Shown one piece after another: positions 47,840 through 50,442 of a stretch of DNA of 64,000 nt. A program made the translations under genes and the position numbers. Position 1 is the first letter of the stretch, and every line of letters starts with the position of its first letter. The stretch comes from Aphanothece sacrum FPU1 (GTDB lineage Bacteria > Cyanobacteriota > Cyanobacteriia > Cyanobacteriales > Microcystaceae), in contig NZ_BDQK01000001.1 of the NCBI RefSeq assembly GCF_003864295.1, positions 666,676 to 730,675 on the forward strand, in the 5' to 3' direction. Below the pieces are notes generated by a model. The model saw only the letters and a list, made by a program, of their open reading frames with translations, had not been told where the DNA came from and made no database searches.

Positions 47840-48637
47840 TTAAAGATTATCGGGATCAATATTTAATTCTCGTAATTTAGCGGCTAGTCTAGCTGCTTTT
47901 TGTTCAGCTAGTTGAGTCTTTTGTTCAGCTAGTTGGGTTTTTTGCTTAGCTATTTCCACTAATTCTAAAGCATTAAAAATCAGTTCTCCTTCTAAGGTAA
48001 ACCAACGTAACCAAAGACGGTTAATATTTTCATAACTTCCTTGCCATAGTCCTAAACTTAATCCTAATTCTGGCAAAGGAAAACGTCCATTAATTAATTG
48101 TCTCCGTTCATATTGACCACCCATTAACTGAAAAATTTGTAACTCATTGGTATAACGACTAAAGACAATATAATAGGGAATTTTGAGAATTTTTTCGTAA
48201 ACTTCCCATTTCGTAGGAGGCTTTCCTAATTGTCTCACGGTTCTTCCTAAATCTTCATTTTCTGTCCCAGGAGATAGTAATTCAACTGCAATAAATGGAC
48301 TAACTTGTTCTTGCCAAATGACATAACTTAACCTTAAATCTTGATTTTCATACAATCTTTCAATCCCCATTACTGCAAACCAATCAGGACGCTTATACCA
48401 ATTAACATGACGAACATCATAATAAAGATTGATATCGGTGCCGATAAATATTTGATTTTCTTCATAATTAGACGGTTTAAAGGTTTGGCGTAATAAAGCA
48501 GGTTGATAACAGTGGTATTCGTCTGGCAAACCCGGTTCCTCTGGATTTTCACTAGGTAAATCATACATGGTTGGTAAAGTATCTCCCTGAGATAGGGGAG
48601 GATCAGATTGAGGGGGAAAACGAGTAAATTTTGTCAT
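47840..48637 (-). CDS. Uma2 family (DUF820) endonuclease-like protein, second copy
   Basis: The 265-residue protein is a paralog of the one at 2221-3018; both share TMYxLxSExPEEPGLPDEYH, GTDxNLYYDxR, KRPDWFAV, ELLSPGTExEDLG and YYIVFxRYTxELQIF. The PD-(D/E)XK residues are conserved here too (PD in RPDW, E in AVELLSPG, K in TKWEVYEK). The tail is a heptad coil (LAEQKTQLAEQKAARLAAKL) ending in NIDPDNL. It is divergent from recR. Substrate and role are unknown. Confidence 0.85.
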   Translation of the reverse strand: MTKFTRFPPQSDPPLSQGDTLPTMYDLPSENPEEPGLPDEYHCYQPALLRQTFKPSNYEENQIFIGTDINLYYDVRHVNWYKRPDWFAVMGIERLYENQDLRLSYVIWQEQVSPFIAVELLSPGTENEDLGRTVRQLGKPPTKWEVYEKILKIPYYIVFSRYTNELQIFQLMGGQYERRQLINGRFPLPELGLSLGLWQGSYENINRLWLRWFTLEGELIFNALELVEIAKQKTQLAEQKTQLAEQKAARLAAKLRELNIDPDNL

Positions 48638-48726
48638 TTTTACTGTAAATTTTATTTTAATTTTATTGTTTAGCTGCTATTTTTTATTATAATAAAGATA
48701 CTCATAAAAGTAAAGGTTATCTAACT

Positions 48727-49320
48727 ATTTATACTCCACCACTTGCCCGCTTAATTGAACAATTACAACGCTTACCAGGGGTTGGTCCAAAAACTGCCCA
48801 ACGACTTGCTTTACATATTCTTAAACGTCCTGAAGTTGAGATTCAAGCTTTAGCGAATGCTTTAGTTGAAGCGAAAAAAAAGGTAGGATTATGTCAAGTT
48901 TGTTTTCATTTTTCGGCTGAACCTATTTGTGAAATTTGTCGTAATCAAAATCGAGATCAAGAGACAATTTGTGTGGTAGCTGATGCTCGTGATGTCATTG
49001 CTTTAGAAAAGACGAGAGAATATAGAGGAAAATATCATGTATTAGGGGGAGTTATTTCTCCGATGGATGGTATTGGACCTGAACAATTATACATTCAAGC
49101 TTTAGTTAAACGGGTAGCGCAAAATCAGATCAAAGAAGTGATTTTAGCTATTAGTCCTACTGTAGAAGGAGAAACTACTACTCTTTATATTGGACAACTA
49201 TTAAAACCCTTTACCAAAGTAACAAGAATTGCTTTTGGTTTACCGATGGGAGGGGATTTAGAATATGCGGATGAAGTAACTTTAGCAAGAGCATTAGAAG
49301 GACGGCGAGAATTAGAATAA
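48727..49320 (+). CDS. recR: Recombination protein RecR with an apparent ATT start codon
   Basis: The frame encodes 197 residues, the normal RecR length, if translation starts at ATT (48727). The start of RecR homology ([20 protein letters not shown]) follows immediately. There is no in-frame ATG, GTG or TTG nearby; the first GTG start (48973) would remove the helix-hairpin-helix and most of the zinc finger. An AAAGG ribosome-binding site lies 10 nt before the ATT. Visible domains are HhH ([13 protein letters not shown]), the four-Cys zinc finger ([16 protein letters not shown]) and Toprim ([14 protein letters not shown]). RecR loads RecA together with RecF/RecO in gap repair. Confidence 0.85.
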
Positions 49321-50442
49321 ATGGATGTTGTTGTTACTGGAATTGGTTTGCGTTCTTGTTTAGGAAATTTAGCCCAAACTTGGCAATCTTTAGTAGCTGG
49401 AAAATCAGGAATAAAGTTACAACAACCTTTTGTTAAACTGTCTCCTTACCCGATGGGATTAATTGAAAATAAGCCAATTTCTCTAAGTTATTTGACTCCA
49501 TTAATAGTAGCAGATGCTTTAACCGATGCTCAGCTTAAATCTCCTTTACCTGACTGTGGTGTAGTGATAGGTTCAAGTCGAGGATGTCAAGGTATTTGGG
49601 AACAATTATTAACTCCAGAAAATACCTTAGATTTGTCAAATTGGTTAGATAATTTACCTCATCAAGCTGCTCTGATAACTGCTCGTCAAATTGAAACAAA
49701 TCATATTGTTGGTGCGCCAATGAATGCTTGTAATACAGGACTTTGGGCTATTAGTCAAGGGGTTGAATTAATTAAACAAAAAAAATGCGATCGCGTAATT
49801 GTGGGTGCGATAGAAACTCCGATTACTCCTTTAACCTTAACAGGTTTTCAACAAATGGGAGCGTTAGCTAAAACGGGTTGTTATCCCTTTGATAAACGTC
49901 GAGAGGGCTTAGTTTTAGCAGAAGGTGGGGCGGTCTTTGTTTTAGAATCAGCCGCATTAGCGTTACAAAGAAAAGCGTCAATTTATGGTCAAATTTTAGG
50001 ATCTAGTTTTACTTGTGATGGCTATCATATGAGTGCGCCCCCAACTGATGATAAAATGGCTTTAATTGCCATTGAACAATGTTTAGAACGCAGTGAATTA
50101 AACTCTCAAGAGATAGATTATATTCACGCTCATGGAACCAGTACACAGCTAAATGATCGCCGAGAAGCTGCTTTAATTAAGTCTCTATTTTCTCCGAATA
50201 TTCTTGTTAGTTCAACTAAGGGGTCAACGGGACACACATTAGGCGCATCAGGGGCAATAACAGTTGCTTTAAGTTTAATGGCTTTACGTTATCAATATAT
50301 ACCCCCTTGTGTGGGTTTAGAAACGTCAGATTTTGACTTAAATTTAGTGAAAGAATCCTATCAGTATCCCCTTAAAAAAGTGTTATGTTTAGGGTTTGGA
50401 TTTGGGGGACAAAATGGAGTGATAGGGTTAGGGAAATTTTGA
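49321..50442 (+). CDS. Beta-ketoacyl-ACP synthase family protein
   Basis: The 373-residue thiolase-fold enzyme starts directly after the recR stop with no spacer. The active-site cysteine is C137 in PMNACNTGLWAISQG. The two histidines are in YIHAHGTSTQLND and SSTKGSTGHTLGASGA. It is about 40 residues shorter than the main FabF (about 416), and the N-terminal region is reduced. It may be an auxiliary KAS for a special fatty acid or lipid rather than the housekeeping condensing enzyme. Coupling to recR appears to be positional only. Confidence 0.85.
   Translation: MDVVVTGIGLRSCLGNLAQTWQSLVAGKSGIKLQQPFVKLSPYPMGLIENKPISLSYLTPLIVADALTDAQLKSPLPDCGVVIGSSRGCQGIWEQLLTPENTLDLSNWLDNLPHQAALITARQIETNHIVGAPMNACNTGLWAISQGVELIKQKKCDRVIVGAIETPITPLTLTGFQQMGALAKTGCYPFDKRREGLVLAEGGAVFVLESAALALQRKASIYGQILGSSFTCDGYHMSAPPTDDKMALIAIEQCLERSELNSQEIDYIHAHGTSTQLNDRREAALIKSLFSPNILVSSTKGSTGHTLGASGAITVALSLMALRYQYIPPCVGLETSDFDLNLVKESYQYPLKKVLCLGFGFGGQNGVIGLGKF

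Follow-up and report, generated by a model that had tools for sequence, protein, structure and literature searches.

recR probably starts at a weak, lineage-specific codon in most sampled Cyanobacteriia

Conserved non-canonical start codons are already known in bacteria. The IF3-sensed start of infC, which lowers synthesis, is ATT in E. coli and ATC in Streptomyces (PMC5472188), and it is AUA in S. aureus (PMC13009471). The recR gene studied here resembles infC in having a non-canonical start, but it encodes a repair protein, so that no autoregulatory loop is evident, and unlike that of infC its codon turns over among ATT, ATC, ATA, ACG, GTT and CTG. A further parallel is sigR of Streptomyces, which has a strong, conserved ribosome-binding site, AGGAGGTG, and starts with GTC in 32 and with GTT in 2 of 34 species; its GTC start lowers synthesis and is repressed by IF3 (PMC5472188). 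With sigR, recR shares a conserved non-canonical start, which in most non-canonical recR loci of the class, though not in Aphanothece sacrum itself, also has a strong Shine-Dalgarno (SD) sequence in front of it; however, the sigR state is confined to one genus in the account of PMC5472188, whereas that of recR spans a class and involves several unrelated codons. In S. aureus, ccpN (AUA) and cvfC1 (AUU) give about 10% of the output of AUG in one, poor, medium (PMC13009471), and a title cited in the same paper has expression of E. coli pcnB (AUU) limited by an inefficient start. In these genes, as proposed here for recR, an inefficient start behind an extended SD limits expression, but they are other genes in other phyla and, unlike recR, do not use ACG or GTT. 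Belinky et al. 2017 report that weaker start codons accompany stronger or more conserved SDs (PMC5622118), which resembles the pairing of weak codon and strong SD in recR; yet their account deals mostly with AUG, GUG and UUG and with selection that maximises initiation, whereas recR looks held low. Proteogenomics of Nostoc 7120 corrected eight genes to ATA or ATT starts, with recR unnamed in the main text (PMC8557916). Our search of the open-access literature found no report on recR start codons. One study is said to cover genes that prefer non-AUG starts and may already mention recR, and Hecht et al. 2017 reportedly dealt with all 64 codons.

The window, a stretch of 64,000 nucleotides from Aphanothece sacrum FPU1, carries the gene of the recombination mediator RecR at 48727..49320 on the + strand (197 codons plus the stop TAA at 49318-49320), identified by domain and profile matches. 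The gene is intact and single-copy in this genome (G000; 4.49 Mb, 20 contigs). Its product scores 278.2 bits against TIGR00615 (cut-off 162.55), with residues 2-194 on profile positions 3-196 of 196, and contains the RecR domains PF21176, PF02132, PF13662 and PF21175 (HhH, Cys4 zinc finger, Toprim and C-terminal domain). The reading frame opens at an in-frame TAA (48658..48660, +), and from this stop up to GTG 48973..48975 (+), which lies inside the Toprim part, it holds no ATG, GTG or TTG. As a start, this first canonical codon would remove RecR_HhH (residues 7-49) and RecR_ZnF (residues 53-73), and we rejected it for that cost. Frame and family alignment make ATT at 48727..48729 (+) the most likely start codon. 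It is preceded, with 10 nt in between, by AAAGG at 48712..48716 (+), a weak SD-like match (-4.0 kcal/mol in the region -20..-4). The two codons directly before ATT, CTA ACT at 48721..48726 (+), are not start-like; the homologous positions elsewhere hold ACG in Nostocales-type genomes, CTG in picocyanobacteria and an in-frame stop in close relatives. The first-pass annotation of this DNA had named the ATT and the 197-residue product, the AAAGG, the lack of canonical codons before the zinc finger and the domains that a GTG 48973 start would delete, and all of this is borne out by our reading. One correction concerns the gene upstream: this neighbour, a putative Uma2-type endonuclease gene (47840..48637, domain match), lies on the minus strand and is divergent, and recR in the window therefore does not stand behind another operon gene. 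Downstream, the recR stop abuts the ATG of a beta-ketoacyl-ACP synthase gene (NF004618; 49321..50442, +) in the junction TAAATG at 49318-49323, and this neighbour lies outside the conserved feature. A scan for promoters and terminators did not exceed the shuffled controls, with 2 promoter-like sites against a shuffle mean of 3.0, and no terminator.

For comparison, the start region was aligned in all 50 family genomes searched, including that of Aphanothece sacrum, the sole member of its genus in the genome collection used. The class set added 80 named contigs, the best 80 of 331 confirmed matches. A phylum-wide search gave a recR match in 376 of 386 genomes, and 30 loci and 100 stretches were taken from among the matches listed; further loci came from 30 outgroup or basal genomes and 24 additional class genomes. 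Removal of identical loci reduced 314 loci to 294 distinct ones, 262 from Cyanobacteriia and 32 from the outgroup (29 from other Cyanobacteriota and 3 from Firmicutes-like MAGs). Three near-complete Cyanobacteriia genomes (G198, G211 and G316) had no recR match in the phylum-wide search; G316 has recO. A start was labelled canonical if a canonical codon lay at -2..+3 of the homologous site, and otherwise as ACG, ATN, CTG or GTT/GTC, in that order. Under this rule, 45 loci where a canonical codon is found no nearer than three codons upstream counted as non-canonical, and in Crocosphaera-like loci this far-upstream codon is a TTG that overlaps the SD.

Within the family, the codon homologous to ATT 48727 is ATT in 43 of the 50 genomes, ATA in 3, ATC in 1 and ATG in 3, so that the alignment of sister-species starts, which had been suggested as a check, places ATT at the same codon in most of them. 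Three family loci (L002, L004 and L005) have an in-frame stop at the position of CTA 48721, 6 nt before ATT, and therefore only the next codon or ATT itself can start there; 12 ingroup loci have an in-frame stop at the codon two before the start site. Across the 262 Cyanobacteriia loci, 217 have no canonical codon at -2..+3, and 172 have none anywhere from the upstream stop to the conserved Tyr. The starts assigned to the 217 non-canonical loci are ACG (91), ATT (72), CTG (24), GTT (20), ATC (5), ATA (3), GTC (1) and one other; the picocyanobacteria have CTG in 20/20 loci read, among the matches listed. The remaining 45 ingroup loci have a canonical codon nearby (ATG in 28, TTG in 12, GTG in 5), as do 31 of the 32 outgroup loci, at the homologous place. 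The odd start, first described as a trait of one gene in one strain, is common to most sampled Cyanobacteriia, with codons that differ by lineage.

Conservation of the protein sets in at the assigned codons. In the ATT/ATC/ATA loci, the commonest residue is shared by 20 and 26 of 80 loci at the two positions before the codon, by all 80 at the codon itself and by 71 and 78 at the next two positions; at the codon and the positions that follow, the range is 71-80 of 80, except for one position with 60. The step is also visible in the ACG loci, where the commonest residue goes from 46/89 just before the codon to 89/89 at it, and in the CTG loci of picocyanobacteria (7/20 before, 20/20 at the codon). 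GGAG is present in 54 of the 80 ATT/ATC/ATA loci, at distances from the codon that fill the whole range 6-12; the intervening stretch is therefore no part of the reading frame. Most ACG loci have a distance of 8 nt (82 of 91), and most GTT/GTC loci one of 7 nt (15 of 21). A search of the Aphanothece sacrum genome for the pattern GGAG + ATTTAY... gave 0 matches, because its own SD is AAAGG.

Codon choice at the site points the same way. Where Thr-Val occupies the site, Thr is encoded by ACG in 83 of 91 loci versus 170 of 935 internal Thr codons, and Ile at the site is ATT in 72 of 80 versus 703 of 1155 internal Ile codons; Val there is encoded by GTT in 90 of 91, with GTG excluded by definition. 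ACG stays in place where the following codon is GCT, CTG or AAC (L177, L208 and L164, respectively), and one locus (L042) reads stop-ACA-ACG-Tyr; judged from these sequences, the start of the ACG clade would be ACG rather than the GTT after it. The ACG group shows a further peculiarity, in that its codons 2-4 are fixed at the nucleotide level (GTT for 83/83 Val, TAC in 81/89, GCA for 59/59 Ala), while 47 later four-fold codons have a mean homozygosity of 0.35 and a maximum of 0.59. In loci of the L136-L232 type, the synonymous sites of GTT TAC GCA after ACG are invariant and relax from codon five. In this group, an additional signal may lie immediately after the start.

These observations bear on three readings in which the odd codon is no start at all or no natural one. 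Translation could begin at an internal canonical codon and yield a shorter RecR, the upstream homology being a relic or untranslated. Such a codon does lie within index 20 (Tyr = 3) in 116 of the 172 loci that lack one before Tyr (within about 8 residues after Tyr in 46, within the next ten in 70 more), and loci with an early one may make a slightly shortened RecR. Yet 24 of the 172 have no canonical codon before index 40, the first one in the window falls beyond HhH and zinc finger, outgroup recR starts canonically at the homologous place, the spacing of the SD to the upstream codon is kept, and the residues from the putative start onward are conserved while third positions vary, as in translated sequence; we regard an internal start as improbable. 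A sequencing or assembly error, raised earlier as a possible refutation, or a strain-specific mutation that made recR a pseudogene, is excluded for practical purposes: the 43 ATT codons come from separate assemblies, which makes the codon neither an error nor a strain oddity, and recR in Aphanothece sacrum is the intact, single copy described above. We give just as little credence to a special route, by RNA editing of the start codon or by frameshifting from an upstream out-of-frame start. Editing of ACG to AUG exists in chloroplasts (PMC9845219), but C-to-U editing cannot make AUG from ATT, GTT or CTG, and neither the sequence upstream of recR nor its stops and frame show conservation.

Other genes served as controls for the reading of starts. 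For recO, a canonical start was found at the site in 28 of 29 loci (the motif was missing in 1 of 30). For infC in the family, the start is GTG in 18 of 18 readable loci (the motif was missing in 12 of 30 loci in this reading and in 2 of 30 in the SD control); the infC parallel drawn in the first-pass annotation stands for E. coli but not for the readable infC loci of this family. The genome of Aphanothece sacrum has two IF3_N matches (G000:C6:218348-218557 and G000:C13:571476-571682), i.e., two infC-like genes, as do several of its relatives. A control with neighbouring gene families, which counted members without a canonical codon upstream of an anchor, gave 87/127 for recR and 8/9, 14/17, 7/9 and 5/11 for others; its anchor rule was judged faulty and rejected, at least two anchors lying within a conserved leader, ahead of a Met that can be seen. 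A second neighbour control counted how many conserved columns are lost when translation begins at the first canonical codon: at least 15 in 42 of 127 recR members and in none of the 119 members of 17 other families. One 5-member family loses at least 15 columns in 4 of 5 members and may, at a guess, be an antisense ORF; recO and infC are therefore the better controls.

The strength of the SD was estimated from duplex energies with a 16S tail, and -5 kcal/mol or stronger was called strong. Mean energies (in kcal/mol) are -11.6 for GTT, -9.7 for ATC, -7.8 for ACG, -7.2 for ATT, -6.4 for ATA and -3.7 for CTG, versus -1.6 for TTG, -1.2 for ATG and +0.8 for GTG among canonical recR loci. A strong SD precedes 193 of 217 non-canonical versus 10 of 45 canonical recR starts (Fisher 6e-19, kinship ignored), and it is found in 10 of 32 outgroup recR loci, 5 of 28 recO loci, 1 of 28 infC loci and 2 of the window's 31 long ATG ORFs. 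Among genes of the sampled genomes, recR thus stands out by having an SD at all, and its SDs are best where its codons are poorest. The CTG loci, 18 of 24, fall below the threshold, as does recR of the window. Cyanobacterial genes often have no SD, so a canonical start without one may be the ordinary state rather than a sign of compensation. Correction for relatedness leaves the trade-off between codon and SD, strong by count, thin: the RecR protein tree offers 5 supported independent pairs, 3.8 of which go the same way and none the opposite way (p 0.125), and the recR DNA tree offers 6, with 4.7 the same way and none opposite (p 0.0625). GTT against very strong SDs gives 2 independent pairs (p 1). 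For mRNA folding around the start, assessed in at most 60 loci per group against mononucleotide shuffles, the mean z is positive in all groups, canonical ones included, which gives no sign of a structure.

Gene order separates the two kinds of start. recR stands behind ybaB in 31 of 32 outgroup loci and 5 ingroup loci (L301 and L371-L374), and 35 of these 36 loci have canonical starts; none of the remaining 248 ingroup loci whose upstream sequence is long enough (208 non-canonical, 40 canonical; 9 with <350 nt upstream were left out) has ybaB before recR. In L291-L320 and L371-L374, from outgroups and basal cyanobacteria, recR lies directly behind ybaB, sometimes with a stop/start overlap, TAATG. 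On the RecR trees, the start switches between canonical and non-canonical 16-17 times, and the six start classes require 44 changes versus about 140 for shuffled labels; the start states are therefore kept and not random. Gene order and trees together indicate that recR acquired its non-canonical start after leaving the ybaB operon, retained a start of this kind and changed the codon many times. It had been proposed that the weak start may govern how fast the ketoacyl synthase gene is translated as well, but the synthase gene stands behind recR in just 5 of the 163 ingroup loci that have at least 300 nt of downstream sequence, and we dropped coupling as the reason for conservation. In the 4 ingroup loci that share this adjacency with the window, the junction has gaps.

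The same history could be read as drift, in which a poor start was merely tolerated once recR had left the ybaB operon, little RecR being needed, and the strong SDs do no more than make the start work. The absence of ybaB before recR in all 208 testable non-canonical loci, against its presence in nearly the whole outgroup, agrees with such a history, as does the failure of the trade-off to reach significance in the tree tests. So does the ATG that replaces ATT, with a good SD kept, in three relatives of Aphanothece sacrum (L016, L017 and L018 in G040, G041 and G039) with small, single-contig genomes of 2.5-3.1 Mb. Judging from the reduced genomes, these are probably endosymbionts, and their ATG possibly reflects relaxed control; a canonical start combined with an SD is otherwise rare in the recR set. 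With 45 of 262 ingroup loci canonical, the weak start is dispensable in some lineages. Drift nevertheless appears unlikely to us, since the non-canonical state lasts through large families with strict codon conservation, as in the ACG loci compared with internal Thr codons, since ATG is one mutation away from ATT or ACG and yet the non-canonical state persists, and since the labels change far less often on the tree than shuffled ones.

We therefore return to the ATT codon as the start. Canonical codons are missing, the codon is conserved in a lineage-dependent pattern, an SD, usually a strong one, stands at a kept spacing, and protein conservation runs from the codon onward; translation probably starts at ATT in the window, and recR is probably held at a lineage-specific weak codon in most sampled Cyanobacteriia, which would throttle RecR. 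So wide a lack of the usual starts suggests that evolution holds RecR production throttled, and the first-pass proposal that the weak start may lower RecR levels is kept here as the best reading. In the proposed working, the SD would recruit the 30S subunit to the recR start site, fMet-tRNA would pair poorly with the weak codon, and IF3 would reject most initiation complexes, leaving few RecR molecules per mRNA. Initiation with fMet at these codons, its slowness, the part of IF3 and the benefit of low RecR are all presumed in this scheme. The preserved trait would then be slow initiation, possibly together with a response to IF3, and no particular triplet, which is why weak codons would be interchangeable over evolution. 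In its full form, namely that a strong SD and the weak codon of each lineage have kept RecR low and tied to IF3 or initiation fidelity in most cyanobacteria ever since the exit from the ybaB operon, the proposal is a tentative one, with somewhat less than even chances; scarcity of RecR may be the need that it serves, or IF3 may link repair to translation. The recR case is real and wider than first claimed, and it is translation from these codons that we infer.

The finding has a practical side. A gene finder that allows no start other than ATG, GTG and TTG is bound to shorten or misplace recR in the majority of these genomes, and the absence of recR from three cyanobacteria according to one survey (PMC5101192) could be an artefact of start-codon annotation. 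If the starts are real, they amount to an experiment, repeated by nature, on how weak a start can be and what SD it needs, ACG and GTT included, as well as a pointer to a need for scarce RecR, and why initiation stays poor on purpose is directly testable in laboratory strains. If the SD and weak codon do hold RecR low as proposed, a recombination gene would have been under translational control across the class for a long time, and ACG and GTT would be natural, conserved bacterial start codons.
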